Shown: positions 1,716 through 31,050 of the stretch, piece by piece | Numbering within the stretch: position 1 is the stretch's first letter | Layout: the number at the start of each line of letters is the position of its first letter | Notes under the pieces: model-generated | Databases searched by the model: none | The model's input: only the letters and a program-made list of their open reading frames with translations | Told to the model about the DNA's origin: nothing | From: Granulosicoccus sp. | GTDB taxonomy: Bacteria > Pseudomonadota > Gammaproteobacteria > Granulosicoccales > Granulosicoccaceae | Reading direction: 5' to 3' | Assembly (NCBI GenBank): GCA_023301795.1 | Contig: JALZVU010000208.1 | Span: forward strand, 1 to 37,255 | DNA: 37,255 nt | Made by a program: the position numbers and the translations under genes

Positions 1716-3370
1716 TGTCAGCCTCTAACCCTATAAGCGTATTTGGTCCTGATTTTCCATTTGCCTACGATAGTTGGATAACGCACAATTCTGGATTAGG
1801 TGCTTTGCCAAGCACAAGACACGGTCAGGAAGTGGGGGTTGTCGGTGCCGGCATGTCTGGAATGGTTGCATCATTTGAATTGATGAAGTTGGGCCTGAAG
1901 CCCATTGTTTTCGAACAGGGGCGAATGGGTGGAAGGCTTCGATCGCAAGCGTTTGTTAATGCCCCCGATGTTATTGCTGAATTAGGTGGTATGCGCTTTC
2001 CTGAATCTGCAACAGCATTTAATTATTACGTTGATCTGCTAAAGCTTGACACTCGTCCATTTCCTAATCCGTTGACTGAGGCTGCTGGCACTACGGTCGT
2101 TGATTTGTCGGGTACTCCACTCTTTGCGCGATCAATACAAGATCTGCCTCCCTTGTTTCGAGAGGTGGCGGACGCATGGGAAGAGGCGCTTAATACCGAG
2201 GCGCACTTTCAGGAACTGCAGAAGGCCATTCGAGAGCGAGACGCCATCGAAATCAAAACTCGATGGGATAAACTTGTTCATGAATGGGACGATCGCACGT
2301 TTTACGATTTTATAGCGACTTCGCAAGCATTCAGCCGACTCTCGTTTCGACATCGTGAGGTTTTTGGGCAAGTCGGATTCGGAACTGGAGGCTGGGATTC
2401 CGACTTTCGTAATACGATGTTAGAAATTCTCAGAGTGGTGCTAACTGAATGCGATAGCAATCAGCACTATATCGTCGGCGGTGCCGAACAAATTCCGCGC
2501 GGTTTGTGGGAAGCCACACCTGAATGCGCACATTGGCCTGAAGGCACATCGTTACGCTCGCTCAACAAGGGTGCAACCAGACCAGGTGCTACCAAAATCA
2601 ACCGTATTGACGGCACAACTCTGCGAGTAACAGATCAATACGATAACGAATACGATTTTCCTGCGGTGTTGGCTACCTGCCAGAGTTGGTTGCTAACTAC
2701 CAGCATAGAAACTGATGAATCGCTGTTTTCCCAAGATCACTGGATGGCTCTGGATAGAACCAGCTATATGCAATCATCCAAGACGTTCGTGATGGTGGAT
2801 CGACCATTCTGGAAAGATATTGACCCTGACACAGGGCAACCATGCATGAGCGTGACACTTACGGATCGTCTAACCAGAGGAACGTACCTGTTCGATAATG
2901 GTGACGATCTTCCTGCCGTAATTTGTCTGACCTATACCTGGATGGCTGATGCCCTGAAGATGCTGCCATTGCCCGCTGACAAAAGAGCCAAGCTAGCGCT
3001 GGATGCTTTACACAAAATCTATCCGAATCTGGATATTCGGGGTCATATTATCGGGCATCCGATTACAATTTCCTGGGAAGCCGATCCAAATTTTCTAGGT
3101 GCGTTCAAAGGCGCGCTGCCCGGGCACTACCGCTATAACAGGCGTATGTTTACACATTTTATGCAGGAACAGTTTGTAACTGAGCAGCAGGGTATTTTCA
3201 TTGCTGGTGATGACGTATCCTGGACACCGGGGTGGGCCGAAGGTGCTGTGCAGACAGCACTCAATGCAGTTTGGGGCATTGTACATCACTTGGGTGGTCA
3301 CACCGTCCCGGATAATCCAGGGCCGGGTGACTGCTTTGATGATATAGCGCCTGTGAATCTGGATTCTTGA
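1715..3370 (+). CDS. davB: L-lysine 2-monooxygenase (FAD amine-oxidase family)
   Basis: Oxidatively decarboxylates L-lysine with O2 to 5-aminopentanamide, CO2 and water; first step of the aminovalerate pathway. The 551 residues match Pseudomonas lysine monooxygenase over the whole length: IFGPDFPFAYDSW-like start, dinucleotide-binding VGAGMSGMVASFE at 43-55, GGRLRSQAF, AELGGMRFPES, the FGTGGWDSDFRN block and the FAD-capping IAGDDVSWTPGWAEGAVQT near the C-terminus. D230 and C246 line up, by my alignment from memory, with the Asp238 and Cys254 reported as functionally important in a Pseudomonas L-lysine oxidase/monooxygenase. Related IaaM (tryptophan 2-monooxygenase) is less likely because similarity to DavB is much closer. 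The genes for the next steps (davT, davD) are not in this window. Confidence 0.93.
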   Translation: MSASNPISVFGPDFPFAYDSWITHNSGLGALPSTRHGQEVGVVGAGMSGMVASFELMKLGLKPIVFEQGRMGGRLRSQAFVNAPDVIAELGGMRFPESATAFNYYVDLLKLDTRPFPNPLTEAAGTTVVDLSGTPLFARSIQDLPPLFREVADAWEEALNTEAHFQELQKAIRERDAIEIKTRWDKLVHEWDDRTFYDFIATSQAFSRLSFRHREVFGQVGFGTGGWDSDFRNTMLEILRVVLTECDSNQHYIVGGAEQIPRGLWEATPECAHWPEGTSLRSLNKGATRPGATKINRIDGTTLRVTDQYDNEYDFPAVLATCQSWLLTTSIETDESLFSQDHWMALDRTSYMQSSKTFVMVDRPFWKDIDPDTGQPCMSVTLTDRLTRGTYLFDNGDDLPAVICLTYTWMADALKMLPLPADKRAKLALDALHKIYPNLDIRGHIIGHPITISWEADPNFLGAFKGALPGHYRYNRRMFTHFMQEQFVTEQQGIFIAGDDVSWTPGWAEGAVQTALNAVWGIVHHLGGHTVPDNPGPGDCFDDIAPVNLDS

Positions 3371-3434: not shown

Positions 3435-4643
3435 TCAACGTACAGAGCTTTTTTGAGCGTCCACTGCTTGCGTTTGCCAAGTTTCGAGCTGTTCGATAAC
3501 ACCTTTGTTTTCCAGATAGTCTCTATTGAGCTTGGTATGAATACGCATATCATCAGTACTATCGACACTCCAGTGCGCTAGATAATTGCTGACATGAACG
3601 ATTCCCACAGCATCGAATTGTTTCGAGAATACGCACGCTGGATTATCGTGAAAGGTTACTGCTTCAACAATGGGTGTTGGTAGGCCCCAGATGTTCAGAA
3701 AGCACCCGCCCAGCTCGGCATGGGTGCACCCTAGAATGTCCCGTTCGCTTTCCTGATTGACCCATGAATTTTCATGCCCATTCGTGTCGCCAACAAGGGC
3801 AGGTATAAGTTCAGGTTTCTCCAGTGCAATGATGATTTTCCCTACGTCATGAAGCAGTCCGGCAGTAAATGCGGTAGCGGACTGTTCGTTGTCTGGAACA
3901 AGCTCTCGAGCTATGGTTGAAGTCAGAACACAATGTCGTTGCAGCAGAGCAGGATCAAATCCTAATAGTTTTGGTAAGCCCTTGGTCATTTCAAACATTT
4001 GATTTGCCAATACCAGGGATCGCAGTGTGTCGGCACCAAGATAGCTCACTGCCTCGCTTGCTGAATCAATCGATCTCTGCCGTCGGAAGAACGAAGAGTT
4101 CACCAGTTGTAGTACCTTGGCGGTTAGAGCGACATCCTTTTCAACTATATTCGTTATTTCCTTTACAGAACTATTGTTCGTATCGAGAAGCTCAAGAAGG
4201 TCGTTGTGGCTGCTTGAAGTTCCCGGTAGACGTCCAGCTTTTCCGGCAAGTTCTTTGACGACGGCGTTGTCAAATGCCTCGATTAATCCACAGTCTCTGG
4301 AAATCGCTTCGTCCAGATCTTCCATCGAGCATGGTTTTCGCAGATAACGTTGAGCCAGTCTTGTCAACTTGATGGTGCTTTTATCATCGGTGTAGCCAGT
4401 CAACGCGATACGGGTTGCCGTAGGGTGGTTATCTTTGGCGTGCTCTAGTACTTCAAGTCCGTCTACACCAGGCATTCTTATGTCTGAGACGACCACGTCG
4501 TAGTCAGCCTGATTCATGGCACTGATGGCATCTTCGCCGCCACAGATGAATTTCATGTCCCAGCAATGTGTGAATCCATGCAGTAAATCTTCTAGTCCCG
4601 CCAGAACTGCAGGTTCGTCATCTACAAACAGTATTTTCTTCAT
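3435..4643 (-). CDS. Response regulator with C-terminal HDOD domain
   Basis: A 402-residue cytoplasmic two-domain protein. Residues 1-118 are a receiver domain with acidic pocket DDE at 8-10, phospho-acceptor D54 in VVVSDIRMPG, T82 in LTGYTD and K103 in LRKP. Residues ~130-340 form an HDOD (HD-related output) domain with the LLNSSFF-like VLQLVNSSFFRR stretch and an LLHDVGKI motif around 265. The remaining ~60 residues are a variable tail. HDOD regulators act by protein-protein or signalling contacts, not DNA binding. The start overlaps the kinase stop (ATGA), so phosphorylation by the adjacent kinase is very likely. Unlike RpfG-type proteins there is no HD-GYP signature, so c-di-GMP hydrolysis is not supported. 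The gene converges with davB, leaving 64 bp. Confidence 0.88.
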   Translation of the reverse strand: MKKILFVDDEPAVLAGLEDLLHGFTHCWDMKFICGGEDAISAMNQADYDVVVSDIRMPGVDGLEVLEHAKDNHPTATRIALTGYTDDKSTIKLTRLAQRYLRKPCSMEDLDEAISRDCGLIEAFDNAVVKELAGKAGRLPGTSSSHNDLLELLDTNNSSVKEITNIVEKDVALTAKVLQLVNSSFFRRQRSIDSASEAVSYLGADTLRSLVLANQMFEMTKGLPKLLGFDPALLQRHCVLTSTIARELVPDNEQSATAFTAGLLHDVGKIIIALEKPELIPALVGDTNGHENSWVNQESERDILGCTHAELGGCFLNIWGLPTPIVEAVTFHDNPACVFSKQFDAVGIVHVSNYLAHWSVDSTDDMRIHTKLNRDYLENKGVIEQLETWQTQAVDAQKSSVR

Positions 4644-6109
4644 GCTGCCAAATCCTCACTGGTTATGTGGGCTGTCGTATTGCTGATCACTTTGGCACCT
4701 GACACGGGAAGTTTGATTTCAAAAGTTGTACCTTTTCCAGGTTCGGTGATAAAGCTCAGACGTCCTGCATGTTTGTTGACAATAATATTATGTGATATGG
4801 CTAACCCTTGCCCGGTGCCTCTTCCCACTTCCTTAGTGGTGAAAAATGGATCAAATACCCGATGTTGAATATCTTGTGGTATCCCAGCTCCATTGTCTGA
4901 GACGCTAATGACAACCTCAGTGTCTTGCTCAATCAGAGTTTTAATTGTAATTATTCCGTCTTTTTCAGCGTGATCTGAGATTGCGTGCGCCGCATTGATA
5001 ATAAGGTTCAAAAATACCTGATTAAGATCCCCTCGATAGCAATGTACCAGTGGCAATTGATCGAAATCCGTTACAATTTTTGCCACATATTTGTACTCAC
5101 TTTTAGCGACCGTCAGGGTTGTCTCTAGTGCTTTGTTGATGTCCGTACCTGTTTTTTCAGCGCTATCGGGATAGGAAAACTCATTCATAGCTCGAACAAT
5201 ATTGGTAACTCTGTCAATGCCGTCCAGTGCACGATCAATAGCTTTTGGTGCTCTGTTTTTGATATGAGCAAGATCAATGTCGTATACGATTTTCTCAAGC
5301 TCTGCGCGTGTCGTTGCTGAATTCAGGTCTTCCTGACTCAGATAGTCTTCAACGTGCAGACTTAAGGTTTGTAATTCTGAAAGTGTATTTTTCAAATATT
5401 GCAAGCTGTTACCGATGTACTGTATAGGGGTGTTGATCTCGTGTGCGATACCGGCGGCAAGCTGGCCTACGGCCTCAAGTTTATTAGCATGGCGATGTTC
5501 GACTTCCATGCGTGCTCGTTCACTAATTTCGTATTCAAGTTTTTGGTTTGCTTCTCTGAGTTTTTCAGCATTATGCTCAAGAGCCCGAGTGCGTCTGATT
5601 ACTCGTTGTTCCAGTTCTCGGTTGAGAGTGCGAAGCTCGTCAGACAGTCGCTCACTGTCCGCCAGAGATGCTCTCTGTGCTTGAACCAGATTTAGGAAGT
5701 CGGGCATGGAGCTGTGCAAGGGGAAGTTGTTGAGCGTCAACCCCAACTGATCAAGAGCGTTTAGCTCTGTAACCCAGGGAGCCACCAGAAAGTAACACTG
5801 GCAGCGAACAGTGGACGCCACTAATTGCCCGCGAAGGAGGAGCTTGGGGTTAGCCAGCGACCTGACAAGAATGGGGGTGTCCTTGTGCAGTTTTAGTTCG
5901 TCTATGCTGACAATGTCAGCGGGGTGGTGAATTATGAAATGATCGGGCAGACGTTCCGTACCGTCCGCTTTAATATCCAATACGCGACGTAACGTAGCAC
6001 CGCAATTCACTATCATTCCATGATCATCGATGACAAAATGAAATGGAAATGCTTGCATAGCTATCGATTTGCATTCCGAATTTTCAGATAATGCAGATTT
6101 TGGGATCAT
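4640..6109 (-). CDS. Sensor histidine kinase with N-terminal HNOBA-like (PAS-fold) domain
   Basis: A 489-residue soluble kinase; no transmembrane segment is visible. Residues ~17-130 (AFPFHFVIDDHGMIVNCGATL, then LRRVL and IHHPADI) look like the HNOBA domain that usually partners H-NOX nitric-oxide/heme sensors. A coiled coil (140-210, RELEQRVIRRTRALE) leads to HisKA with phospho-acceptor H223 in GIAHEINTPIQYIGNSL, then a complete HATPase_c: N box NLIINAAHAI, G1 DNGAGIP, F box FDPFFTTK, G2 GRGTGQGLA. The product probably phosphorylates the overlapping HDOD regulator. No H-NOX gene lies in the window, so NO sensing is only a possibility; a partner elsewhere or direct ligand binding are alternatives. 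No strong ribosome site precedes the ATG at 6109; M18 is another possible start. Confidence 0.87.
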   Translation of the reverse strand: MIPKSALSENSECKSIAMQAFPFHFVIDDHGMIVNCGATLRRVLDIKADGTERLPDHFIIHHPADIVSIDELKLHKDTPILVRSLANPKLLLRGQLVASTVRCQCYFLVAPWVTELNALDQLGLTLNNFPLHSSMPDFLNLVQAQRASLADSERLSDELRTLNRELEQRVIRRTRALEHNAEKLREANQKLEYEISERARMEVEHRHANKLEAVGQLAAGIAHEINTPIQYIGNSLQYLKNTLSELQTLSLHVEDYLSQEDLNSATTRAELEKIVYDIDLAHIKNRAPKAIDRALDGIDRVTNIVRAMNEFSYPDSAEKTGTDINKALETTLTVAKSEYKYVAKIVTDFDQLPLVHCYRGDLNQVFLNLIINAAHAISDHAEKDGIITIKTLIEQDTEVVISVSDNGAGIPQDIQHRVFDPFFTTKEVGRGTGQGLAISHNIIVNKHAGRLSFITEPGKGTTFEIKLPVSGAKVISNTTAHITSEDLAA

Positions 6110-8201: not shown

Positions 8202-8228
8202 TGTCTCAATTTGTCGCAAGATGTCGCA
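8202..8228. promoter_or_regulatory. Candidate enhancer-binding site: three TGTCNCA direct repeats
   Basis: TGTCTCA (8202), TGTCGCA (8212) and TGTCGCA (8222) are spaced exactly 10 bp apart, one helical turn, 130-155 bp upstream of the sigma-54 promoter at 8358. The same heptamer or its complement recurs upstream of the other two sigma-54 promoters of the island. Inference: binding site of the AcoR-like activator encoded at 20171-22192. Confidence 0.5.
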
Positions 8229-8357: not shown

Positions 8358-8373
8358 TGGCCTCTACTTTGCA
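8358..8373 (+). promoter_or_regulatory. Sigma-54 (RpoN) promoter, -24/-12
   Basis: TGGCCTCTACTTTGCA keeps the invariant GG at -24 and GC at -12 with exactly 10 nt between, plus the TTGCA end of the consensus TGGCACG-N4-TTGCW. Transcription would start near 8384, giving a ~65-nt leader before the ATG at 8449. This argues against the alternative GTG start at 8389. Confidence 0.75.
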
Positions 8374-8448: not shown

Positions 8449-8811
8449 ATGAGACCAGTGTATTGGCTTCTAGAGGTTTCTATTGAACTTTCCTATTTTG
8501 ATGATTTTGAAAAGCTCATGATGGAGCTGGTTTTGGAAGCCGATAGAGAGGCGGGTACCATGGCCTGTGAGTGGAATTTCAATAGCGATGGAACGGTCTG
8601 CTACATCTATGAAAGGTTCACAAATGCTGATGCAGCCATGATCCACCTTGGCATGTTTGGAGAGCGATTCGCGGAACAATTCCTATCAGTTTGCCGCGTG
8701 AGTAATTTAACGATACTTGGCTATGCGAACGACGAGCTGGAGGATGTGCTCAAGGGGTTCAATCCGACTGTCTTGCACCAGCGAGCAGGTTTTGCCCGCT
8801 TTGTCGCATAG
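8449..8811 (+). CDS. ABM-family (antibiotic biosynthesis monooxygenase-like) small protein
   Basis: A 120-residue dimeric alpha/beta-barrel type protein. It shows the usual order of a beta strand (VYWLLEVSI), a helix (FDDFEKLMMELVLEADREAGT), a strand with the charged CEWNFNSDGTVCYIYERFTNADAAMIHL block and a second helix (MFGERFAEQFLSVC). Such proteins are often cofactor-free oxygenases, quinol monooxygenases or small-molecule isomerases; the reaction here is unknown. The start was chosen because GGAGG (8438-8442) sits 6 nt before ATG 8449; ATG 8443 overlaps that site, and GTG 8389 lies only a few bases after the predicted transcription start. First gene of a sigma-54 transcribed unit with the lipoate-ligase-like and CobT-like genes, 34 bp before the former. 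Confidence 0.75.
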   Translation: MRPVYWLLEVSIELSYFDDFEKLMMELVLEADREAGTMACEWNFNSDGTVCYIYERFTNADAAMIHLGMFGERFAEQFLSVCRVSNLTILGYANDELEDVLKGFNPTVLHQRAGFARFVA

Positions 8812-8845: not shown

Positions 8846-9589
8846 ATGAGTTTATTCACCAATGTTTCAAACAATTTGTCACTGATTGATCATTATTCTG
8901 ATCCAGCAGATGCCCTGAAAGCTGAGTTATTGTTGGTTGAACAGTTCAAGAACCCGTCGGTTAACTATCACATCGCCTGGTGGGCAACGACACAAAGCCT
9001 GATTGCACCACGCTCCTTGCAAAGTGTACCTAATATTAAAGATGCAACTAATATTTCAGCGTCCTGTGGTTGGCCTGTGTACTTTCGAAGTACCGGTGGA
9101 GATATCACACCGCAGGGAGAGGGGATATTGAATGTTGCTGTTGCTTTTGCCCTTGATTCAACAGAGCAACCTTCAATCAGTGGTGTATATGAGATCTTCT
9201 GCGCGCCCATGCTTGGTTGGCTACAAGAGCATGGCTGCAGTGCGCAAAATGGTTTCGTGCCTGGTAGTTTTTGTGATGGTGAGTACAACATTGTTGTCAA
9301 TGCGCGAAAGTTTGCAGGGACCGCTCAAAGATGGACACGTGTAAGGGCTATTGAGTCGAGGCAGATCGTGTTTGCGCATGCACTGCTGTTGTTTGACGCA
9401 AAAATCGATGCTGGTGTTGAAGCTATTAACCGATTTTTTGAGCACTGTAACCTAGACAGATCTGTACAGAGCCTTGCGCATGTTAATTTGAATGAGGTAC
9501 TTGAAACCCCTTCTATTCACTGGCAAGAGGACTTTGTTCGCAGTCTCAATGAAAAATACTCGCGAGAGCTGAAGGCCTTGACGTCGTGA
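8846..9589 (+). CDS. Lipoate-protein ligase A-like (BPL/LplA/LipB fold)
   Basis: A 247-residue protein of the biotin/lipoate transferase fold. The substrate loop FRSTGGDITPQGEGILNVAV replaces the classical RRxSGGGAVxxxxGNLN, and the catalytic-lysine segment reads NARKFAGTAQRW (K155) in place of GKKISGSAQR. Length is shorter than full LplA (~337), lacking the C-terminal accessory domain, as in LipM/LplJ-type or LplA-N enzymes. Expected job: attach lipoate or octanoate to the lipoyl lysine of an E2. The acoC-like E2 (lipoyl K46) encoded 4.3 kb downstream is the obvious client, as acetoin-dehydrogenase clusters sometimes carry their own ligase. The loop is divergent, so transferase versus ligase chemistry is open. 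No good Shine-Dalgarno before ATG 8846. Confidence 0.72.
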   Translation: MSLFTNVSNNLSLIDHYSDPADALKAELLLVEQFKNPSVNYHIAWWATTQSLIAPRSLQSVPNIKDATNISASCGWPVYFRSTGGDITPQGEGILNVAVAFALDSTEQPSISGVYEIFCAPMLGWLQEHGCSAQNGFVPGSFCDGEYNIVVNARKFAGTAQRWTRVRAIESRQIVFAHALLLFDAKIDAGVEAINRFFEHCNLDRSVQSLAHVNLNEVLETPSIHWQEDFVRSLNEKYSRELKALTS

Positions 9590-9617: not shown

Positions 9618-11486
9618 ATGAATGAGAATTCTTCAACGCTTGCGAATGACCCTTGCAAGGAACTGGATCTGGATGCGTATGAGGTGGCATCGCAGGCATA
9701 TTTGCGCACGATGAGTAATGATACCTCACTCATTGTGGCCAGCAGTGACGACGATCTGTGTGAGGTTTCAGTCGTTGCTGTGCCAAGGTTGAAGTCGATG
9801 TATGACAAACAACGTTTGGCTCTTCATAGAGGTCTGCTGGATTCGTACGCGTTCATGAGGCAGTATCACGATATTGATGTGCACAAGCTGAATGCACCCG
9901 AAGATGAAATATCGGTTCGGTTGTTCAACTTGTTGGAGCGTGAGCGGTTTGAAGTACTAGGGGGGGAACAATATGCCGGCTCTCAGTTAAATCTTACAGC
10001 CCTGTGGGCTGGCAGCTACACACCGGAGTTGATTGATCGTCTTGCTGGTGTGGAACAGCTGGAGTGGATAATCAGTGTGCTGTGTCGTGAGCACTTGAAT
10101 GCTGCACCGGCTCCAGACTATGTTGCTCCACTCATTGAACCTTTGCGAGGCCCTGTCGAGGCTCTGGTTGGCGTGCATTTGACCGAAATGGCCAAGGTGC
10201 GCATTGATCAGCAGCGCTATGCGCAAGAAGTGTTGCTACTCATTGAGCAACTTGGATTTGCCATTGACGGTGAAGAATCCGTTTCTGATGATCCAGCTAC
10301 GACTGACGATAGTGCAACAGAGCTGGATCCCGAGAACACTGAGGGTGAGGACGTCAACGATGTCTCGCAAGTTGGCTCTGGAGTGCTTCCTGAACCTTGT
10401 GTTTCAGATCATGAAGATCACGGCGCTTTAGTCAGAAACGCTGAATGTACAAATTCTTTTGAATCTACACTGAAAGAGCTTGAACAATTGGCTGAAAACG
10501 AAGCCACTCGCGAGGTATTGCAAAACAATGGTAGCAGTGCAATCAATGCTTATTCGATCTATGATCCATCCTTTGATGAGGAAGTAAGTGCGCTGGATCT
10601 TGTCGATCCAGTGGAGCTCAAGACATTGAAGTTATCGCTTGATCGTTGTGTCAATCAGCATTCACAGTTAATACATAGACTGGCGGCACGTTTACAGAGA
10701 CATCTCATGGCTCAGCAAAAGAGAGCCTGGCTTGATGAGCAGGATGAGGGCGAGCTGGATACGCGTCGCCTGCCTCGACTGATTATTGACCCGGCAACGC
10801 CTGTCAGTTACCAGATTGAAGCAGAGCTTCCGGTACGCAGCACTACCGTTACGATTCTTGTCGATAATTCGCGCTCTATGCTGGGCCGGCCCATCGAGCT
10901 GGCTGCGGTCTGCACCGAGTTGCTGACACGCACCTTGGAACGCTGTGGAGTGAGTAGCGAAGTTCTTGGGTTTACCACCGTTGCCATGTATGGCGGTGCC
11001 TCAAAGGCTCTGTGGCAGGAAGCTGGGGAAGTCAATAGCCCGGGACGTTTGAACGGTGTGCGCCATATCATCTACAAATCGGCACATATGCCTTGGCGTC
11101 GTGCAAGAGAGCGTTTTGCTGTAATGCTGAAGTCTGATTTACTCAAGCAAAACATCGATGGAGAGGCGTTGCAGTGGGCACATGAACGTCTGCTTAAACG
11201 GCCTGAACAAAAGCGATTACTGATTGTTGTTTCGGATGGCGCGCCATCTGATGCAGCGACACTGACTGCCAATAACAAGGATTTTCTGGTGAAGCATTTA
11301 CGGGCAGTGGTGAGTGACATAGAAAAGCGCTCTCCAGTAGATCTCATGGCGATCGGCATCGGGCATGATGTCAGCGAACACTATGCAAACGCCATGATGA
11401 TTAATGATGCAGATGAATTAGGATCGGCATTGCTACGTCATTTGGCTCGTATGCTGATCGATAGCCATTCGCACCCGATAGTCTGA
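9618..11486 (+). CDS. CobT-like protein: VWA domain, cobaltochelatase subunit family
   Basis: A ~622-residue protein with the layout of aerobic cobaltochelatase CobT. There is an N-terminal helical region (1-215), an acidic linker (219-250, rich in D/E/S/T), a second helical part (280-375) and a C-terminal VWA domain (~385-610). The CobT-specific entry GELDTRRLPRLI precedes the MIDAS motif DNSRSMLGRPIE (D417, S419, S421), and family blocks LERCGVSSEVLGFTT, GRLNGVRHIIYKSA, PWRRAR, NIDGEALQWAHERLL, RPEQKRLLIVVSDGAPSD and AIGIGHDV follow. CobT normally works with the AAA+ protein CobS and with CobN to insert cobalt into hydrogenobyrinate diamide; neither gene is in the window. Here it ends the sigma-54 unit with the ligase-like gene (28 bp gap). 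Its role may therefore differ. An in-frame TTG at 9615 is an alternative start. Confidence 0.75.
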   Translation: MNENSSTLANDPCKELDLDAYEVASQAYLRTMSNDTSLIVASSDDDLCEVSVVAVPRLKSMYDKQRLALHRGLLDSYAFMRQYHDIDVHKLNAPEDEISVRLFNLLERERFEVLGGEQYAGSQLNLTALWAGSYTPELIDRLAGVEQLEWIISVLCREHLNAAPAPDYVAPLIEPLRGPVEALVGVHLTEMAKVRIDQQRYAQEVLLLIEQLGFAIDGEESVSDDPATTDDSATELDPENTEGEDVNDVSQVGSGVLPEPCVSDHEDHGALVRNAECTNSFESTLKELEQLAENEATREVLQNNGSSAINAYSIYDPSFDEEVSALDLVDPVELKTLKLSLDRCVNQHSQLIHRLAARLQRHLMAQQKRAWLDEQDEGELDTRRLPRLIIDPATPVSYQIEAELPVRSTTVTILVDNSRSMLGRPIELAAVCTELLTRTLERCGVSSEVLGFTTVAMYGGASKALWQEAGEVNSPGRLNGVRHIIYKSAHMPWRRARERFAVMLKSDLLKQNIDGEALQWAHERLLKRPEQKRLLIVVSDGAPSDAATLTANNKDFLVKHLRAVVSDIEKRSPVDLMAIGIGHDVSEHYANAMMINDADELGSALLRHLARMLIDSHSHPIV

Positions 11487-11567: not shown

Positions 11568-11603
11568 TGTGACAGGTGTAGCGCACATGCGACACTCTCG
11601 ACA
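11568..11603. promoter_or_regulatory. Candidate activator site upstream of acoA
   Basis: TGTGACA (11568), TGCGACA (11588) and CTCGACA (11597) are near-copies of the complement of TGTCGCA, spaced about two and one helical turns, and lie 43-78 bp before the -24 element at 11646. The intervening TGT-N12-ACA has partial dyad symmetry. The match to the repeats near 8202 and 20017 suggests the AcoR-like protein binds here. Confidence 0.45.
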
Positions 11604-11645: not shown

Positions 11646-11661
11646 TGGTATAGCGGTTGCT
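11646..11661 (+). promoter_or_regulatory. Sigma-54 promoter upstream of acoABC
   Basis: TGGTATAGCGGTTGCT has GG-N10-GC at the exact spacing and ends TTGCT as in the consensus; the CAC after TGG is not conserved. The start of transcription would fall near 11673, ~90 nt before acoA. Confidence 0.68.
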
Positions 11662-11764: not shown

Positions 11765-12730
11765 ATGCAGTTGTCTCGTGACGAGTTGATTGAATCATAT
11801 CGGGTGATGCGCACGATTCGGGATTTTGAAGAGCGTGTGCACGAAGAGTTTTCAGGTGGTGCTATTCCAGGGTTTGTTCACCTCTACAGTGGCGAAGAGG
11901 CGTCGGCTGCTGGTATTTGTCAGCACCTAAGTGACAAAGACAAGATTGCCAGCACTCATCGTGGACACGGGCACTGTATTGCCAAGGGTTGTGACGTCCG
12001 GCAGATGATGCTTGAAATCTATGGGCGTGGGGAAGGGCTATGTGGTGGTAAAGGTGGCTCGATGCACATCGCTGATCTGTCTAAGGGAATGTTGGGTGCT
12101 AACGGCATTGTAGGAGGCGGGCCACCACTGATTTGTGGCGCTGCCTTGACGGCTAAGTACAAGAAAACAGGCGGGGTAGCGATTGCTTTTGTAGGTGATG
12201 GTGGATCGAATCAGGGCACCACACTGGAGTCATACAACTTGGCCAAGGTGTGGAATTTACCAGTCATCTTTGTCGTAGAAGACAACGGCTATGCTGAAGC
12301 AACATCAAGCAGTTGGTCTGTTGCAGGTAGTCAGATGGATCGCGCCAAAGGTTTTGGCATGCCCGCAGTACAAGTGGATGGGCATGATTTCTTTGCAGTC
12401 CATGAAGCTGCTGGAGAGGTCATTGAGCGGGCACGCGCTGGGGGAGGACCCAGCTTGATGCACGTGATACTCAATCGATTCTTTGGCCATTTCGAAGGTG
12501 ATGCAATGACTTACCGCGCAGAGGGTGAGATTGCTAGGTTGCGCAAGGAAAAAGACAGCCTCAAAATATTTAGAACTAATGCAACTCAGGCAGGCTTGCT
12601 TGAAGATGCCGATATGGACAAAGTCGACAAAGAAGTCGCTGGTCTGATTGATGATGTGGTGAAAGAGTCCGAGAAGGCTACGCCACCACCTCTCGAGAAA
12701 CTGACCACTGACGTTTACGTCAACTACTGA
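11765..12730 (+). CDS. acoA: TPP-dependent dehydrogenase E1 component, alpha subunit (acetoin dehydrogenase-like)
   Basis: A 321-residue E1 alpha. With E1 beta and TPP it decarboxylates or cleaves a 2-oxo compound or acetoin and passes the acyl group to lipoyl-E2. The HRGHGH stretch (THRGHGHCIAKG), GGKGGSMHIAD and the TPP/Mg motif GDGGSNQGTTLESYNLAKVW-N are all present, and length fits AcoA/PdhA of the short type. TAGGAG lies 8 nt before the ATG. acoB follows after 18 bp. Acetoin rather than pyruvate is favoured by the fused lipoyl-hydrolase E2 and the AcoR-type regulator, but the subfamilies are hard to separate by eye and the true substrate is uncertain. Confidence 0.87.
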   Translation: MQLSRDELIESYRVMRTIRDFEERVHEEFSGGAIPGFVHLYSGEEASAAGICQHLSDKDKIASTHRGHGHCIAKGCDVRQMMLEIYGRGEGLCGGKGGSMHIADLSKGMLGANGIVGGGPPLICGAALTAKYKKTGGVAIAFVGDGGSNQGTTLESYNLAKVWNLPVIFVVEDNGYAEATSSSWSVAGSQMDRAKGFGMPAVQVDGHDFFAVHEAAGEVIERARAGGGPSLMHVILNRFFGHFEGDAMTYRAEGEIARLRKEKDSLKIFRTNATQAGLLEDADMDKVDKEVAGLIDDVVKESEKATPPPLEKLTTDVYVNY

Positions 12731-12748: not shown

Positions 12749-13753
12749 ATGTCAAAAAAATCATATCGGCAGGCGATCAACGAAGCAATCGCGCAGGAAA
12801 TGCGCCGCGATGAGAACGTACTCGTCTGGGGTGAAGACAATGCCGGTGGTACCGGTGGTGATGGCGAACAGGACGCCTGGGGTGGTGTGCTCGGCGTGAC
12901 CAAGGGACTGCTTCCGGAGTTCGGTCCCAATAGAGTGCTGGATACACCCATTTCGGAAAGTGCTTTTATTGGTGCGGCTGCAGGTGCTGCAGCAACAGGA
13001 TTGCGTCCAGTTGCAGAATTGATGTTTGTTGATTTTATGGGCGTCTGTTTTGATCAGATATTTAATCAAGCAGCGAAATTTCGATATATGTTTGGCGGCA
13101 AGGCGGTGACACCCATGGTAATTCGTACCATGTACGGTGCAGGTTTTCGAGCTGCTAGTCAGCATAGTCAGGCATTGTATTCGGTCTTCACTCATGTGCC
13201 TGGATTGAAAGTTGTGGTGCCCTCATCGCCTTATGAGGCGAAAGGCTTGATGACTCAAGCCATTCGTGATGATGATCCTGTGATCTTCTTTGAAAACAAA
13301 GTCATGTATGACGATGAAGAAGAGGTGCCTGATGATCCTTATGCAATCCCGTTCGGTGAAGCGCGACTCACTCGTGAAGGTGACGACGTAACCATAGTGG
13401 CGATCGGCCGTATGGTGGGCATAGCCAATCAAGCTGCAGATGAACTGGAAAAAGCGGGAATATCAGCAACCGTTGTTGATCCTCGGACCACCTCACCGTT
13501 GGACGTCGATACCATTATCGAATGTGTTGAGGATACGGGACGACTGGTGGTAGTTGATGAATCTCATCCGCGTTGTTCTGTGGCTTCAGATATCTCGTCC
13601 ATCGTGGCGCAGCACGCCTTCAAGGCACTTAAAGGCCCCATTCAGATGGTCACTGCACCCCATACTCCAGTTCCTTTTGCACCAGAACTTGAGGATGCCT
13701 ATGTGCCAAATCCTGCCAAGATAGTTGATGCCGTCAAGGTTGCTATGGCGTAG
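12749..13753 (+). CDS. acoB: TPP-dependent dehydrogenase E1 component, beta subunit (acetoin dehydrogenase-like)
   Basis: A 334-residue E1 beta. Visible blocks: YRQAINEAIAQEM, VWGEDNAGGTGGDGEQDAWG, VLDTPISESAFIGAAAGAA, GLRPVAELMFVDFMG, QAAKFRYMFGG, the SQALYSVFTHVPGLKVVVPSSPYEAKG stretch (split here for length) and a C-terminal transketolase-type domain with TVVDPRTTSPLD and VDESHPRCSVASDI. It forms an alpha2-beta2 heterotetramer with AcoA. CGGAG lies before the ATG. A large inverted repeat (13768-13805) separates it from acoC, suggesting separate tuning of E1 and E2 levels. The protein reads intact. Confidence 0.88.
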   Translation: MSKKSYRQAINEAIAQEMRRDENVLVWGEDNAGGTGGDGEQDAWGGVLGVTKGLLPEFGPNRVLDTPISESAFIGAAAGAAATGLRPVAELMFVDFMGVCFDQIFNQAAKFRYMFGGKAVTPMVIRTMYGAGFRAASQHSQALYSVFTHVPGLKVVVPSSPYEAKGLMTQAIRDDDPVIFFENKVMYDDEEEVPDDPYAIPFGEARLTREGDDVTIVAIGRMVGIANQAADELEKAGISATVVDPRTTSPLDVDTIIECVEDTGRLVVVDESHPRCSVASDISSIVAQHAFKALKGPIQMVTAPHTPVPFAPELEDAYVPNPAKIVDAVKVAMA

Positions 13754-13873: not shown

Positions 13874-14995
13874 ATGACTGACAGTATTCAACCGATCATT
13901 ATGCCCAAATGGGGATTGGCAATGACGGAAGGTTTGTTGGCAAGCTGGAGTGTTGTGGAAGGTGTGACTATCAATGCTGGAGACGAGATCTGCGAAATTG
14001 AAACCACAAAGCTTGCAAACATGTTCGAGTCCCCCGTGAGTGGTCTATTGAGACGATGCGTGGCAACTGAAGGTGAAGACCTACCCGTAGGTGCGCTACT
14101 AGCTGTTGTTGCAGCGAGTGATGTATCTGACGTTGATGTAGACGCTTACGTTGCCAGATTTCAGGAAGACTTCGTGCCTGAAGAAGCTGATGATACAGGG
14201 CCTGAACCAGAGAGCGTAACAGTGGATGGACTGCGTCTAGTGTATTTGAAGCAGGGGGAGGGGGACGGTATTCCGATTATATTGCTCCATGGATTTGGTG
14301 CTGATATGAATGGGTGGCTGTTCAATCAAGGCGATCTGTCTGAGGTTGCACCAACGTTCGCTCTAGATCTCCCGGGTCATGGTAAGTCAGCGAAGCAGGT
14401 TGGTGATGGAAGCCTTATGTGGATGGCAGGAGTTGTGGAAAAATTCATGAGTGCAATGTCATTACCTACAGTACATCTTGTAGGTCATTCTATGGGGGCG
14501 GGAATTGCATTGCAGATTGCAGCGGATCAGCCACAGGCGGTTAAGAGCTTGACGCTAATTGCTGGTGCAGCGTTGGGTGATGAGGTGAATATTGAGTTTC
14601 TGGAAGGCTATGTTGCGGCAAAACGGCAAAAGCATATGAAACCCGTACTTCAGCAACTAGTGTATGACAAGGACTTGATCAGTCCCGATATGATGGAAGA
14701 GGTATTTAAGTTCAAACGCATTGATGGTGTGATCGACGGTCTGAATACACTGATTCAAACAAATTTTGTCGGAGGTACCCAACAAGGCTCATTACGTGAT
14801 GCACTGTCGGCGCTGAGCATCCCTGTGACGATTATCTGGGGCAGGGAGGATCAGATAATTCCTGTTAGTCACACTGATGGTTTACCTGCATCAGTCAAGA
14901 TTGAAATAATTGAACATTCTGGACATGTCCCGCAGATGGAACACGCATCGCGTGTCAACGAGATTATTACTGCCACAATTGCGTCGGCAGCATAG
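13874..14995 (+). CDS. acoC: Acetoin dehydrogenase E2: lipoyl domain fused to alpha/beta hydrolase
   Basis: A 373-residue protein. Residues 1-82 are a biotinyl/lipoyl domain with modified lysine K46 in EIETTKLANMFESPVSG. A linker rich in D/E/P (100-115) leads to an alpha/beta-hydrolase domain (118-373) with nucleophile S206 in LVGHSMGAG, acid D326 in WGREDQIIP and H351 in HSGHVPQMEH. In place of a CAT-type acyltransferase, AcoC proteins carry this hydrolase fold and are taken to move the acyl group from lipoyl to CoA. This architecture is the best argument for acetoin dehydrogenase over pyruvate dehydrogenase. No E3 (lipoamide dehydrogenase) gene follows, so a shared E3 elsewhere is needed. 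A GAG-type Shine-Dalgarno precedes ATG 13874. Confidence 0.88.
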   Translation: MTDSIQPIIMPKWGLAMTEGLLASWSVVEGVTINAGDEICEIETTKLANMFESPVSGLLRRCVATEGEDLPVGALLAVVAASDVSDVDVDAYVARFQEDFVPEEADDTGPEPESVTVDGLRLVYLKQGEGDGIPIILLHGFGADMNGWLFNQGDLSEVAPTFALDLPGHGKSAKQVGDGSLMWMAGVVEKFMSAMSLPTVHLVGHSMGAGIALQIAADQPQAVKSLTLIAGAALGDEVNIEFLEGYVAAKRQKHMKPVLQQLVYDKDLISPDMMEEVFKFKRIDGVIDGLNTLIQTNFVGGTQQGSLRDALSALSIPVTIIWGREDQIIPVSHTDGLPASVKIEIIEHSGHVPQMEHASRVNEIITATIASAA

Positions 14996-15224: not shown

Positions 15225-16322
15225 CTAAATCAGGGATACTCCTGATTCTCGCTCAAAAAGATGCCATCGCGAGGTGTCCATACCCAGGTAGCAAGTATCA
15301 CCCATGTCAGCAATGTAGTCCGGATCAGTCTTGATTGTCACACGCGTATCGTTTACGTTAGCCTCGACTAGCAGATCGCCGCCCAGCAGTTCAGTGACTA
15401 GTACCTCGCCCTTGATTGGATGCTCGGGTGTCGCCCGTGCACTAATCGTTACATGCTCCGGACGAATACCCATATGAACCTGTGAGTGTTCCTTCGCTGA
15501 GCCATTGAGTTTTGCGATGTGTTCGGCATTAAGGGCAAATGAGAATGCATTATGACTTAAATGCAAGTGCCCGTTGCTTTCCGTTAGTGAACAGTCGAGA
15601 AAATTCATCGCCGGCTCACCGATAAAGCCTGCTACCCATTGGTTGGCCGGTTGATTATAAATCTCTGATGGAGTGCCAACCTGTTGCAGCACTCCATCGC
15701 GCATGACAGCGATACGATCAGCCATCGACAGTGCTTCGAGTTGATCGTGTGTTACGTAGATCATCGTAGTCTTCAAGCGCCGTTGCATGATTTTTAACTC
15801 ACTGCGCATATGGGCTCTGAGCTTAGCGTCCAGATGCGCGATCGGCTCATCGAATAGAAAGAGTTCTGGCTCGCGCACAATAGCTCGCCCAATGGCGCAC
15901 CGTTGCTTTTGTCCACCAGAAAGCTCCAGAGGTTTACGGTCTAAAAGGGGTGAAAGCTCTAGAAGCTCTGCAGCCCACTTAACTTTCTTGTCTATCGTAG
16001 CTTTGTCTACTTTTTGAATCTTCAGGGCATTGGCCATATTGTCATAGACGGATTTATGAGGATAGAGGGCATAGTTCTCGAACACCATTGCCAGATTCCG
16101 ATCCTTAGGCGGAAGATCATTTATTCGCTTGTCGTTAAATAGAATATCGCCAGCAGTGATATGCTCAAGTCCTGCCAGCATGCGCATCGTCGAACTCTTG
16201 CCACATCCTGAAGGGCCTAGGATACAAACGAATTCACCATCCAGACACTCAAGATTCAGATCTTTTACTGCCGGTGTGTCACCGTAATATTTCCAGACTG
16301 ACTTGATGCTAATTGATGCCAT
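15225..16322 (-). CDS. Carbohydrate-type ABC transporter ATPase (MalK/UgpC family)
   Basis: A 365-residue ATPase that powers import through the two permeases encoded upstream. Walker [10 protein letters not shown] (36-44), signature [15 protein letters not shown], Walker [15 protein letters not shown] and switch His in VTHDQLEA are intact. A ~120-residue C-terminal TOBE-type regulatory region (MGIRPEHV) is typical of this family. The Q-loop residue is Glu, not Gln (E82 in FENYALYPH, equivalent in number to MalK Q82). Last gene of a four-gene minus-strand unit behind a sigma-54 promoter; 90 bp separate it from permease 2. Substrate class (sugar, polyol or other small hydroxylated compound) cannot be fixed from sequence. 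Confidence 0.9.
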
Positions 16323-16412
16323 TGGTTTCTACCGTTATACGTTTCGTTGATCTGGAAGTAGTTGCTGTGAAGTGACGGTGCCGAGCACTGTATTTCTCGC
16401 TGATAGAAATAC

Positions 16413-17291
16413 TCATTCTTTTACCGCACCCATTGTCAGGCCCGTTACCAGATATTTGCGTATGAGCAGTCCTAGTAATGTCATCGGCAAACTAGTGATT
16501 ACACCGGCAGCCATGATTTTCCCCCACTGGATGCTGGTGGGAGTGACGAGTTCCCTTGTGGCTACTGGTAATGTCTTGGCTCCGCCGGAACCGATGATCG
16601 AGGCGAACAGAAAATCGTTCCACGAGAACAGGATACACAGAACAATGAATGCGCCAATACCCGGCGCTGCTAGTGGCAGTATTTCCATAAATGCGCCAAA
16701 GCGTGTACGACCATCTACCATTGCAGCTTCTTCTATCGCGTAGGGGACGTTGTCAAAAAACCCTTTTAAAATCCAGATAGCAAATGGCAGATTGAATGTC
16801 GTGTATGCCAGTATCAGTCCTGGGATTGTACCTACCAAATCCAGATTCCTGAAGATCGCATATAGAGGCACCATGACGGCAACCACGGGAGCCATTCGTG
16901 TAGATATGATCCAGAAGAACACATGATCCTTACCCTTGAAATCTATGCGTGACAATGCGTAGGCAGCCATGGCCCCTAGGACCACAGACACTAATGCGGA
17001 GCCTGTGGACACGATGACACTATTGATAAAGTACACCGAGAAATTACGCTCTGTGAATAGTTCGGTGTAGTGCTTGGTAGTGGGTGTAAATTCAAAAAAC
17101 ACACCCATACCGGCAAAATCCCCGATTTCTGGTAGCGTGAAGGCTTCTAATAGATCCTTGAACGAGGACACAAACATGATAAGAAATGGCGCAAGCGTCC
17201 AAATCAGATAAACAATCAAAAAAATAGTAGTAAACACTGTGACAAGTGTGCGAGTCCGCGACTTGTACTGCACTGCTTCCAGCGTGGCCAT
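16413..17291 (-). CDS. ABC transporter permease (MalG/UgpE type)
   Basis: A 292-residue inner-membrane protein with about six hydrophobic segments, from VFTTIFLIVYLIWTLAPFLIM near the N-terminus to the last near IMAAGVITSLPMTLLGLLI. The EAA loop that docks on the ATPase is AIEEAAMVDGRTRFGAFMEI followed by LPLAAPG. It ends VTGLTMGAVKE, a close match to the usual VxGLTxGAVKG end of this family. Two bases separate it from permease 1, so they are co-translated. Together they make the heterodimeric channel. Confidence 0.9.
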   Translation of the reverse strand: MATLEAVQYKSRTRTLVTVFTTIFLIVYLIWTLAPFLIMFVSSFKDLLEAFTLPEIGDFAGMGVFFEFTPTTKHYTELFTERNFSVYFINSVIVSTGSALVSVVLGAMAAYALSRIDFKGKDHVFFWIISTRMAPVVAVMVPLYAIFRNLDLVGTIPGLILAYTTFNLPFAIWILKGFFDNVPYAIEEAAMVDGRTRFGAFMEILPLAAPGIGAFIVLCILFSWNDFLFASIIGSGGAKTLPVATRELVTPTSIQWGKIMAAGVITSLPMTLLGLLIRKYLVTGLTMGAVKE

Positions 17292-17293
17292 GA

Positions 17294-18274
17294 TCAGGTC
17301 CCTCCCGAATTGCTGCGAGTACTGGATGGTCGCTCGAATACACGGACCAGAATCATGCCCAGTACAATGGTAACCGCCAGTAAAGTCAGTGCTATTGCAG
17401 CACCTCGTCCGAGTTTGAAAAAGCTGAACGAGACATCGAACAGATAAGTTGGAAGAATCTTGGTGGAGTTTGCAGGGCCCCCACCTGTCAGAACAAGGAT
17501 TGCGTCTATAAAGCGGAAGTTATCCATGAATCGCAGCAAGATAGCGATCAGCAGAAAAGGGTAGAGGTTGGGTAGGGTAACCTGGAAAAAATTACGAATA
17601 TCCCCAGCGCCATCCACCATATTCGCTTCAAGCTGGTCTCGTGGTACGCGCTTCAAGCCTGCCAACACAATAAGTATGATTAGTGGCGTCCATTGCCAGA
17701 TGTCAACCATGACGATACCAATCATGGCAGTACTGCTACTTCCAAGTATTGACTTGTCACCCAGTATTCCCAAGCTCTGCATAAGCCAGTGATACCAGCC
17801 AAATGTGGAGTTGTACATGTAGTACCACACCAAACCTGCTATGACAGGTGCCATCATCATTGGCATTAGGAATATGGTTACCAGAATTTTTTCATAGCGT
17901 GACCGATTCAGAATGAGCGCTATCATCACACCTAGAGTTACCTCAAAGAACATGCATAGGCTGCTATATTTCAATAGTAGCCACCAACCTTCCTGAAACT
18001 TTCTATCCCGACCTAACCGTGTCCAGTTCTTAAGATTGTTCCATGTGTCGTCCGCCAGCCCCAGATCCACTGTGTGAAGACTCATGTAGATAAGCCAGAA
18101 GAAGGGATAAAGCGTAATTGCTGCAAGTACAATAATTGCAGGCATCATCAGATAGAAATAGAAACGATTCGATAGAGCTGCATTGCGGGCACCGGCAGGT
18201 GCGTCAATGACAAGGCCGCCGTCTCGAAAGATGGCCTTCGTAGATACGAAGGCCTCAGTAAGCTGATCTTTCAT
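17294..18274 (-). CDS. ABC transporter permease (MalF/UgpA type)
   Basis: A 326-residue inner-membrane protein. It starts with a ~37-residue cytoplasmic tail followed by the first membrane segment (FYLMMPAIIVLAAITLYPFF), then LCMFFEVTLGVMIALILN, MMMAPVIAGLVWYYMY and the later segments. The EAA loop is PRDQLEANMVDGAGDIRNFF followed by VTLPNLYPF. It begins 7 bp after the binding-protein stop. Family and position make it the partner of the 16413-17291 permease. Confidence 0.9.
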   Translation of the reverse strand: MKDQLTEAFVSTKAIFRDGGLVIDAPAGARNAALSNRFYFYLMMPAIIVLAAITLYPFFWLIYMSLHTVDLGLADDTWNNLKNWTRLGRDRKFQEGWWLLLKYSSLCMFFEVTLGVMIALILNRSRYEKILVTIFLMPMMMAPVIAGLVWYYMYNSTFGWYHWLMQSLGILGDKSILGSSSTAMIGIVMVDIWQWTPLIILIVLAGLKRVPRDQLEANMVDGAGDIRNFFQVTLPNLYPFLLIAILLRFMDNFRFIDAILVLTGGGPANSTKILPTYLFDVSFSFFKLGRGAAIALTLLAVTIVLGMILVRVFERPSSTRSNSGGT

Positions 18275-18281
18275 GATGTAT

Positions 18282-19811: not shown

Positions 19812-19933
19812 GCTCAATTCTCTCCGGTGGTCCAAGAATGAAAAACGACGCGGATGAACCTAAATCGCCAGATATTATTGTTATGTTATGTTCTGCTGCG
19901 ACTTAACTTCATGCGATGCGCTCTTTAGAGAGG

Positions 19934-20016: not shown

Positions 20017-20061
20017 TGTCACAGTGTTGCAATGCGTCGCGCCGATGCGACACCTGTGTCA
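20017..20061. promoter_or_regulatory. Candidate activator site upstream of the ABC operon
   Basis: This stretch packs TGTCACA (20017), TGTTGCA (20025), a dyad GTCGC-N6-GCGAC (20036-20051), TGCGACA (20046) and TGTGTCA (20055). It lies 68-112 bp upstream of the -24 element at 19949, the usual place for an enhancer-binding protein, and shares the TGTCGCA/TGCGACA word with the sites near 8202 and 11588. Confidence 0.5.
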
Positions 20062-20170: not shown

Positions 20171-22192
20171 TCAGATGTCTTGATGATCAGGTCTGACAAT
20201 GCCATATTTTTTAATATGGCGATGAGCGGTTGCCCGGCTAATTCCTAAGTCGTTTGCAGTTTTCGATACACACCATCGATTCCGATATAGAGCCTGCGTT
20301 AGCTCTTCCTGAGGTGACAGGTATATCTGTTGCACGGGAGGTACTGCAGACGGCAGTCTTCCGGCCGCAGGAATATTCTGTTGTTGAGGTACCGGTACAT
20401 AGTTGGCGGTACTGATCAAATCGTCCGGTAGATCATCAAGAGTAGCAAGGCCATCGCCGCAACTGAACACCGTGTATTGCATTACGTTGTGAAGCTGCCG
20501 AATGTTGCCCGGCCACTGACACGCCTTCAATTGTGCCCATACGGGATCTGACAAGCTTACCAAGCTGTCGGGGTCGAAGCGTTGCAGCAGATCTTCGACA
20601 ATTTCAGCGAAATCCTGTCGATTTCGTAGTGCAGGTAAGGTAAGTGTTGCACCACAAACTCGGTAATATAAATCCTCACGAAATTGGCCGTTTGCAACCA
20701 GTGAGATCAGATCCCTGTGACTGGCGCAAACCAGCTGGAAATCTACGTCAATAGATTTTGCACCTCCTAGTGGCTGCACTTTGTGTTCAGCCAGTACGCG
20801 TAGTAGACGTGTCTGTGATTCCATTGGCATATCGCCTATCTCGTCAAGGAACAATGTTCCCCCGTTGGCTGACACAATTTGGCCGGCTTTTCCCTCTTTA
20901 AGTCCACCCGTAAATGTACCTGGTGAGTAGCCGAACAGTTCACTGTCAATCAGGCTTTCGGGTATTGCAGCGCAGTTCAATTCGACAAATGGCTTTGCTG
21001 CTCTACAACTCTCATTATGCAAAGCTCGAGCGAAAGTGTCTTTGCCAGTACCAGTCTCGCCTTGCAGTAGAAAGGGTATGCCATCTGAGCTATCGCTGTG
21101 ACTGAGCATGCGTCTACAGACGTTCACAAGTTTCTGTGTACGTCTATCTGAGCCGGCCAGCTCGTCAAGCGACATATATTCATCAGAGGTTGTTGTGACT
21201 GATGCACGCTTTTTGCGTCGTGAAGTCTGTTTGGCTACGCGTTCACTCGGCGGGACGCTTACTGCATAACGACCAGATTGAATGTTCTTTTCTAGTCTGT
21301 GAAGGCGTCCGTTGCTGGAGAACAGGACATCCAGATCTAGGCCAATTACTTTGTCGATCGCGGTTCCTACTACTGTTTGTCGAGACCCCATTCCCAAACT
21401 GGAAATCAAATCGTTTGTTGCCCCTATGATTCGACCAGAATCATCAATCGCCAACAACCGCGACATATCGTGATTTTCATTGAAAAGTGAATCAGTGATT
21501 GCCACTAGCGTGCTATGGCGAAAAAAATCTCTGAAACAATAAGTGTGTAGTTGCTCAGCACTTCGTCGCACGTATTGGCTGACGCGAACTGCTTCGGTCT
21601 GACTTTGAGTGGCATTTCCAGTGACGTTGATTGCTCCGTACTGAAGACCTCTATGATCGAGTAAGGGCGCTGCGGAGCAGATAAACTGATGAAAGCTATT
21701 GTGGAAGTGTTGATCACCATTTACTGTCACTGCAGTCTTGCTGGCCAGAGCCGTACCCAGACCATTAGTGCCCACACAGGCCTCATCCCACAGGGTGCCC
21801 ACGGTTATGCCGCGTTTTTTCAGATCACGTGCCATAGCGGTGTCGCAATACTCCGCGATAGCAGCGCCGTCTGAATCTCCGATCAACATGCAGTAGTCCG
21901 CGTTCCTAACGACTTTGCGTATTTCATGTAGCACCGGATCTACACTTCTCAATGGCTCCTCTACACGTTCACGTCTGCTTACCAGCTCACTTTGGCTGTA
22001 GCGATTTCCCAATAAACTCGAGCCGCGACTCAATCCATATTCTGCTTCGCATCTTGTCCACGATTCTTGGATGAATGTCTTAGACGCGCTCTCAGTATTG
22101 AGATCAGGAAAAGTCGGAATGGGCGGGCGCTGGGCGTCGGTTTGAGAGTCCTTTAACGTTTGCACAGTGATGTTCTCCCAGACGTCGTTCAA
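20171..22192 (-). CDS. acoR: AcoR-type sigma-54-dependent transcriptional activator
   Basis: A 673-residue enhancer-binding protein. Residues ~85-225 are a GAF-type sensor with the AcoR/DhaR-family block GTLWDEACVGTNGLGTALA. A PAS-like segment follows (~245-305, LLAIDDSGRIIGATNDLI), then an AAA+ domain: Walker A GETGTGKD (378-385), sigma-54 contact loop GTFTGG (425-430, variant of GAFTGA), Walker B GGTLFLDEIGD and a WPGNIRQLHNVM sensor block. A Fis-type HTH ends the protein (TANDLGISRATAHRHIKKYG). It is expected to sense a small metabolite and activate the island's sigma-54 promoters by ATP-driven remodelling. The gene sits upstream of the ABC operon on the same strand, with that operon's own promoter between them. 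Confidence 0.9.
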   Translation of the reverse strand: MNDVWENITVQTLKDSQTDAQRPPIPTFPDLNTESASKTFIQESWTRCEAEYGLSRGSSLLGNRYSQSELVSRRERVEEPLRSVDPVLHEIRKVVRNADYCMLIGDSDGAAIAEYCDTAMARDLKKRGITVGTLWDEACVGTNGLGTALASKTAVTVNGDQHFHNSFHQFICSAAPLLDHRGLQYGAINVTGNATQSQTEAVRVSQYVRRSAEQLHTYCFRDFFRHSTLVAITDSLFNENHDMSRLLAIDDSGRIIGATNDLISSLGMGSRQTVVGTAIDKVIGLDLDVLFSSNGRLHRLEKNIQSGRYAVSVPPSERVAKQTSRRKKRASVTTTSDEYMSLDELAGSDRRTQKLVNVCRRMLSHSDSSDGIPFLLQGETGTGKDTFARALHNESCRAAKPFVELNCAAIPESLIDSELFGYSPGTFTGGLKEGKAGQIVSANGGTLFLDEIGDMPMESQTRLLRVLAEHKVQPLGGAKSIDVDFQLVCASHRDLISLVANGQFREDLYYRVCGATLTLPALRNRQDFAEIVEDLLQRFDPDSLVSLSDPVWAQLKACQWPGNIRQLHNVMQYTVFSCGDGLATLDDLPDDLISTANYVPVPQQQNIPAAGRLPSAVPPVQQIYLSPQEELTQALYRNRWCVSKTANDLGISRATAHRHIKKYGIVRPDHQDI

Positions 22193-30970: not shown

Positions 30971-31050
30971 GTTTGACAAATAACCCAAGGGTGAGATGTA
31001 CGAAGCTTACCCCAAGCGGCCGCGCACGGTGTTTAGGGTAGGGCGATCGT

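Follow-up and report, generated by a model that had tools for sequence, protein, structure and literature searches.

The window analyzed here is a 37,255-nucleotide stretch of DNA from Granulosicoccus sp., a marine bacterium (GenBank assembly GCA_023301795.1, contig JALZVU010000208.1, positions 1 to 37,255). An intact open reading frame (ORF) for a CobT-like VWA protein, cobT, is located at positions 9618..11486 of the forward strand; it starts with an ATG codon at 9618 and encodes 622 amino acids (aa). The gene order in this part of the window is an ABM-like gene, a LipL-like gene (lplX), cobT and acoABC, with gaps of 34 and 28 bases between the first three genes and 278 bases before acoABC. 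A first-pass annotation, made from the letters alone, had placed cobT directly 3′ of a lipoate-ligase-like gene and 5′ of acoABC, and had seen no corrin gene nearby; the gene order was confirmed, and no corrin gene was present among the window proteins scanned. The same annotation had proposed looking for a co-occurring MoxR/CobS-type AAA+ gene. None was found in the cluster, and the sole AAA+ match in the window was a sigma54 activator, so that an AAA+ partner of this CobT, if there is one, must act in trans.

The first gene of the unit (8449..8811, forward strand) encodes a 120-aa protein that had no match in a Pfam search. Its AlphaFold2 (AF2) structure, predicted with moderate confidence (pLDDT 69), has the order beta-alpha-beta-beta-alpha-beta, and a Foldseek comparison matched the model to MupZ (2.5e-5) and to several ABM-family structures, indicating the fold of an ABM-like dimeric alpha+beta barrel protein. 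When the ABM profile was searched at the class level, four weak matches were obtained (E 2e-10 to 3e-5). The second gene, lplX (8846..9589, forward strand), encodes a 247-aa protein with the LplA/LipB fold (PF21948, 1e-13). LplX matched the LipL-type structures 2p5i (BH3822, 6e-9) and 2p0l, and the GS(F/Y)C and K..GxaQR motifs were conserved. In the motif of the window protein, GSFCDGxYNIVV...K..GTAQR, the cysteine is Cys143 and the lysine Lys155, and both residues align to 2p5i and are conserved in the host genome and in a second Granulosicoccus genome. These structure matches and conserved motifs favour the name LipL-like octanoyl/lipoyl transferase for LplX over that of a ligase. It resembles LipL, the octanoyl-[GcvH]:protein octanoyltransferase, in the sequence of the catalytic region and in the Cys and Lys motif, but differs from it in its tie to aco-type operons and in its score against the LipL equivalog model NF053589, which was far below the cut-off (44.1 bits against 400). 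The possibility that LplX is the only octanoyl transferase of the genome was ruled out by the presence of LipB, and LplX is therefore an extra and probably dedicated enzyme. At the class level, one distant match to the LipL-like gene was found outside the genus. A distant LipL-like relative was also observed in more than 20 Aeromonas species (loci L078, L080-L082, L084-L101 and L104), and those checked carry no aco genes nearby.

Downstream of cobT, profile matches identified an AcoA-like E1 alpha subunit (11765..12730) and an AcoB-like E1 beta subunit (12749..13753), followed by an AcoC-like E2 (13874..14995) with an N-terminal lipoyl domain and an alpha/beta hydrolase domain, all three on the forward strand. 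The E2 scored 452.7 bits with PRK14875, above the cut-off of 307. The sigma54 activator, encoded on the reverse strand at 20171..22192, is of the AcoR type, with a PF00158 match of 3.6e-58 and a Fis-type HTH. Elsewhere in the window, the reverse strand encodes a 599-aa fusion protein that combines an acetate kinase with a PduL-type phosphate propanoyltransferase (29189-30988), and a histidine kinase that matches the HNOBA domain (4640-6109) and adjoins an HDOD response regulator (3435-4643).

Both Pfam CobT domains were detected in the window CobT, each far above its cut-off: CobT (PF06213) at residues 21-244 with 8.2e-30, and CobT_C (PF11775) at residues 400-614 with 8.8e-75. Residues 16-613 align to residues 20-619 of the CobT in 9uka (E 2e-122). 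According to the Pfam matches and this full-length alignment, the protein retains the N-domain, the acidic linker and the C-terminal VWA domain, in agreement with the earlier description of it as a full-length CobT-like protein. An intact MIDAS had also been claimed, and D416, S418, S420, T453 and D540 are indeed present in both of the aco-linked CobTs that we found; the previous numbering (D417, S419 and S421) was counted from a TTG codon at 9615, whereas ours is counted from the ATG at 9618. With the cobaltochelatase equivalog model TIGR01651, the window CobT scored 453.7 bits over residues 23-613, below the cut-off of 759, which is also missed by the cobS-linked CobT of the same genome (699.8 bits); a third CobT of that genome scored 527 bits. 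An AF2 model of the window CobT, made from a two-row alignment, had a pLDDT of 33 and was left unused.

The intergenic DNA carries promoter-like signals, which are pattern matches, the sigma54 pattern (TGG-N8-TTGCW) and the half-site pattern both having been set after the sequence was viewed. A sigma54-type -24/-12 element, TGGCCTCTACTTTGCA, is located at 8358..8373 on the forward strand, upstream of the ABM-lplX-cobT unit, and a second one, TGGTATAGCGGTTGCT, at 11646..11661 on the forward strand, upstream of acoA. The window contains five matches to the pattern against an expectation of about two, and all but these two elements lie within genes; the pattern with the wrong spacing, TGG-N9-TTGCW, occurs in the window at chance level. 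Upstream of the ABM unit there are also three TGTCGCA-type half-sites, 10 bp apart (8202..8228, forward strand), a putative activator site, and a single perfect TGTCGCA half-site lies upstream of acoA (11588..11594, reverse strand). A further half-site cluster (20017..20052, reverse strand), together with a sigma54-like site at 19949, is found upstream of the ABC transporter operon at 15225-19835, which is probably a third unit of the regulon. Such clusters number two in the window and none in 60 window shuffles. The plain count of TGTCGCA in the window is at chance level (8 against 7.7), only the clustering being unusual, and a strict inverted-repeat pattern had no match. In a second Granulosicoccus genome (G023), the comparison concerns the acoA side, since the stretch upstream of the ABM gene lies off the contig; here, a similar sigma54-type site, TGGCACACGGATTGCC (position 3224 of locus L039), and a half-site cluster (3146-3187) were found at the corresponding places upstream of acoA. 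Taken together with the activator gene at 20171-22192, the sigma54-type sites and half-site clusters suggest that both halves of the locus form one AcoR regulon that includes cobT.

The first-pass annotation had called this CobT an orphan and left two options, namely that the organism keeps cobT apart from cobN and cobS, or that the protein is a paralogue. The host genome (5.78 Mb, 97% complete) encodes three full-length CobTs, one CobS, one CobN and one BchH. The canonical cobT, the kind of second copy that the annotation had asked for, is located on another contig (C149) directly 3′ of the only cobS found in the genome; the window cobT has no adjacent cobS. The third cobT, on contig C274 (L035:59-1861), adjoins an MMR_HSR1 GTPase gene. 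CobN is encoded in a corrin cluster with CbiD, precorrin-6A reductase, CbiE/T and CobW. Since a canonical cobS-cobT pair and CobN are both present, the first option is excluded; the word orphan holds for the locus but not for the genome, which has its cob operon elsewhere. A second PF02514 gene was considered as a second CobN client and rejected, because it is bchH within a bacteriochlorophyll cluster. This cluster, on contig C103 (L038), contains bchN, B, H, L and M, as in kelp-associated Granulosicoccus, in which B12-synthesis and bacteriochlorophyll genes are both present (PMC9238374).

Multiple CobTs are a feature of this genus. In a phylum sample of 398 genomes, each of the 134 other CobT-bearing genomes had exactly one match, and nearly all Granulosicoccus genomes had two to four, some of them fragments or split matches of one gene. 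By neighbourhood, four kinds of CobT can be distinguished in Granulosicoccus: canonical cobS-cobT, GTPase-flanked, divergent cobS-cobT and aco-linked. The GTPase-flanked kind, without cobS, was observed in most genomes of the genus with two MMR_HSR1 GTPases of about 550-600 aa (L042-L046, L049, L053 and others), often with a redoxin gene alongside and with UbiA and glutathione reductase genes near; the flavoprotein had been considered as a lipoamide dehydrogenase or mercuric reductase, and both were ruled out by its identity as glutathione reductase. The divergent kind is a further, shorter cobS-cobT pair beside a gene of about 860-890 aa, and was seen in several genomes (for example G013, G015 and G009; L071, L072 and L074) in addition to the canonical pair. 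The aco-linked kind was found in two genomes, the host (G000) and G023.

In G023, the genes for ABM, LipL-like protein, CobT, AcoA, AcoB, AcoC, a CMD-family protein and an AcoR-type activator lie in this order on one contig. Identities between the two genomes were 87% for AcoA, 88% for AcoB, 63% for AcoC, 61% for ABM, 46% for the LipL-like protein and 41% for the aco CobT; for comparison, they were 62% for the canonical CobT, 81% for CobS and 42% for the GTPase-linked CobT. Because it is kept at such divergence in two separate assemblies, the gene order is attributable neither to chance nor to an assembly fault. The LipL-like gene was detected in four of the 27 genomes of the genus, and CobT lies beside it in only two of these four. 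LipL-like relatives were also found beside aco-like operons or AcoR genes without CobT (L076, L079 and L083), which indicates that CobT is not generally needed for the LipL-like gene; the small gene next to the LipL-like gene in these loci is a different one, of the DUF1330 or thiamine-binding type. As judged from these loci, aco-type loci are repeatedly accompanied by a LipL-like gene and a small partner gene, and CobT is an addition to this set. Two of the aco-like operons in Granulosicoccus (L076:4952-9074 and L079) encode a 235-aa E2 that consists of the catalytic domain only, with no lipoyl domain found; in both, the LipL-like gene overlaps the E2 gene, a DUF1330 gene is present and an AcoR-type gene adjoins.

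A tree of 44 CobTs placed the aco pair in one clade (100/100). The first-pass annotation had asked whether CobTs linked to a lipoate gene form a clade of their own, and this was confirmed, for a clade that so far has two members. The pair joined the GTPase-linked CobTs (93/91), away from the cobS-linked CobTs. In a second, quick tree with alphaproteobacterial CobTs added as outgroup, the cobS-less group, comprising the GTPase-linked and aco CobTs, was recovered with an SH-aLRT of 100 as sister to the canonical Granulosicoccus CobTs (100), and both groups fell inside one Granulosicoccus branch (99). The branches of the aco CobTs are long (1.7 and 1.64 substitutions per site, the two being about 3.3 apart), and the position of the pair within the cobS-less group is accordingly unsure (86/52). 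In the simplest history, the gene would have been duplicated once in the Granulosicoccus line and then again, the later event giving rise to the aco type. The window CobT did not group with canonical CobT in either tree; with three CobTs in the genome, these results contradict the possibility, named in the first-pass annotation as the one that would overturn its proposal, of a single cobT grouping with canonical CobT, and they support the paralogue option.

Residues invariant in canonical CobTs (at least 95% across 39 rows, 19 alphaproteobacterial and 20 from Granulosicoccus; one of the 19 was in a wrong reading frame and was dropped for the second tree) were kept in both aco CobTs at 16 of 22 positions in the N-domain, 21 of 35 in the middle part and 67 of 120 in the VWA domain. 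Twelve such positions were missing from every GTPase-linked CobT and from both aco CobTs: C329, L348, G419, V428, W457, K458, R463, M504, G507, E511, D546 and E558. G419 was replaced by R or K and W457/K458 were lost in all cobS-less CobTs, and the surround of the MIDAS in both aco CobTs reads R419, M457 and Y458 instead of the canonical G419, W457 and K458. These residues lie in loops at the MIDAS rim, G419 in the DxSxS loop, W457-K458 just after T453, and D546 just past D540-D545. Replacements of this kind would be expected if the MIDAS face had changed its binding partner, and in the canonical complex the rim residues may touch CobN. Solved structures include CobN-CobS-CobT (9uka-9ukc), and PDB 21vu combines one chain from the N-domain of CobT with another from the C-terminal end of CobS; this pairing favours the N-domain as the part facing CobS.

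The window CobT thus resembles the CobT of CobNST (9uka, 21vt and 21vu) in full-length homology, the acidic linker and a VWA domain with MIDAS, but differs from it in lying away from cobS and cobN, in belonging to a separate clade, in its replaced MIDAS-rim residues and in its place in the aco regulon. With the GTPase-flanked CobTs (for example L035 and L042) it shares a tree group, the lack of an adjacent cobS, the change of G419 to R or K and the loss of W457/K458; those CobTs have GTPase neighbours and occur in most genomes of the genus, whereas the window type has aco neighbours and occurs in two. As far as can be read from the DNA, the window encodes one of several CobT paralogues of the genus, a diverged copy whose position and promoter-like signals link it to a lipoyl complex. 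We consider it likely that this paralogue is neofunctionalised and does not serve CobN.

Against this stands a reading in which the protein serves as a conditional spare subunit of cobaltochelatase: expressed when the aco genes are induced, it would join CobS and CobN and raise B12 output at times when the pathway calls for a B12-dependent enzyme. The complete CobT domain set, the intact MIDAS and the presence of CobN, CobS and a corrin operon in the genome fit such a role, and viral cobST clusters have been proposed to hijack host CobN (PMC8651126). We nevertheless regard it as improbable: cobS and cobN lie outside the regulon seen, residues around the MIDAS that are invariant in canonical CobTs are replaced, no B12-dependent enzyme was recognised beside the window cobT, and the aco CobTs have diverged much more quickly than canonical CobT between the same two genomes (41% against 62% identity). 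An equally small likelihood is given to a VWA adaptor for an AAA+ protein other than CobS, for example a MoxR-like ATPase or the magnesium-chelatase BchI of this phototrophic genus. Many AAA_5 matches were obtained in the host genome, and a bacteriochlorophyll cluster with BchH is present, but none of those AAA+ genes is linked to the window cobT, and most of the CobT-typical residues are retained in the N-domain, the part that 21vu shows with CobS. It is just as unlikely that the protein is a scaffold independent of any ATPase, bringing together the lipoyl transferase, the ABM protein and the E2 solely through its VWA/MIDAS domain. Domains of this type serve widely as metal-dependent binding modules, and neither conserved cluster has an AAA+ gene except the sigma54 activator; however, the whole CobT architecture is kept, including the N-domain and the middle part, which would be superfluous for a scaffold. 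A decaying duplicate without settled function, carried along with acoABC, could account for the long branches and for the absence of the gene from most of the genus, but is very improbable, as both copies are intact, have all MIDAS residues, share the 67 canonical-invariant VWA residues and keep the gene order and the promoter-like signals.

Returning to the neofunctionalised paralogue, the conserved linkage, the shared promoter signals and the altered MIDAS-rim residues suggest a putative client in the lipoyl complex, or the ABM protein as client. The best-fitting reading, to which we give even odds, is that the window CobT is a diverged VWA adaptor which works with CobS or another AAA+ in trans and whose client belongs to the lipoyl complex and is no longer CobN; the more particular statement that it links CobS, or a different AAA+, to a client from the aco regulon we place slightly below that, and any one named client lower again. 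In the proposed mechanism, the N-domain would dock on a CobS-type AAA+ hexamer at its lid, the simplest candidate being the single CobS of the genome, and the VWA/MIDAS face would grip an acidic residue of the new client, for which the LipL-like transferase and the lipoyl E2 (AcoC) are the likeliest candidates. ATP-driven remodelling might then help lipoylation or reactivation of the complex once AcoR and sigma54 have switched the regulon on. A precedent is provided by CbbO, a MIDAS-bearing VWA adaptor of the MoxR AAA+ ring CbbQ, which acts on Rubisco (PMC5385338). CbbO similarly ties a MoxR-group AAA+ ring to the metabolic enzyme in whose operon it lies, a likeness of working and not of family membership; it is encoded together with CbbQ, whereas the window CobT has no adjacent gene for an AAA+ partner.

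Among the papers available to the search, none linked CobT with acetoin and lipoate. To our knowledge, CobT has one known job, its part alongside CobS and CobN in inserting cobalt into the corrin ring, and AAA+ assistance to a lipoyl enzyme complex would be the first case. It is conceivable, though doubtful, that the CobTs of Granulosicoccus are exchangeable VWA adaptors for one CobS ring, one type serving CobN, another linked to the GTPase pair and a third, controlled by AcoR and sigma54, serving the lipoyl complex. For annotation, a lone “cobT” gene in Granulosicoccus should not be taken as evidence of a cobaltochelatase. If the proposal is true, the CobS motor would be re-aimed by swapping its VWA subunit, CobT having multiplied in the host genome and CobS having remained single, and this swap would parallel the action of CbbQ/CbbO on Rubisco.
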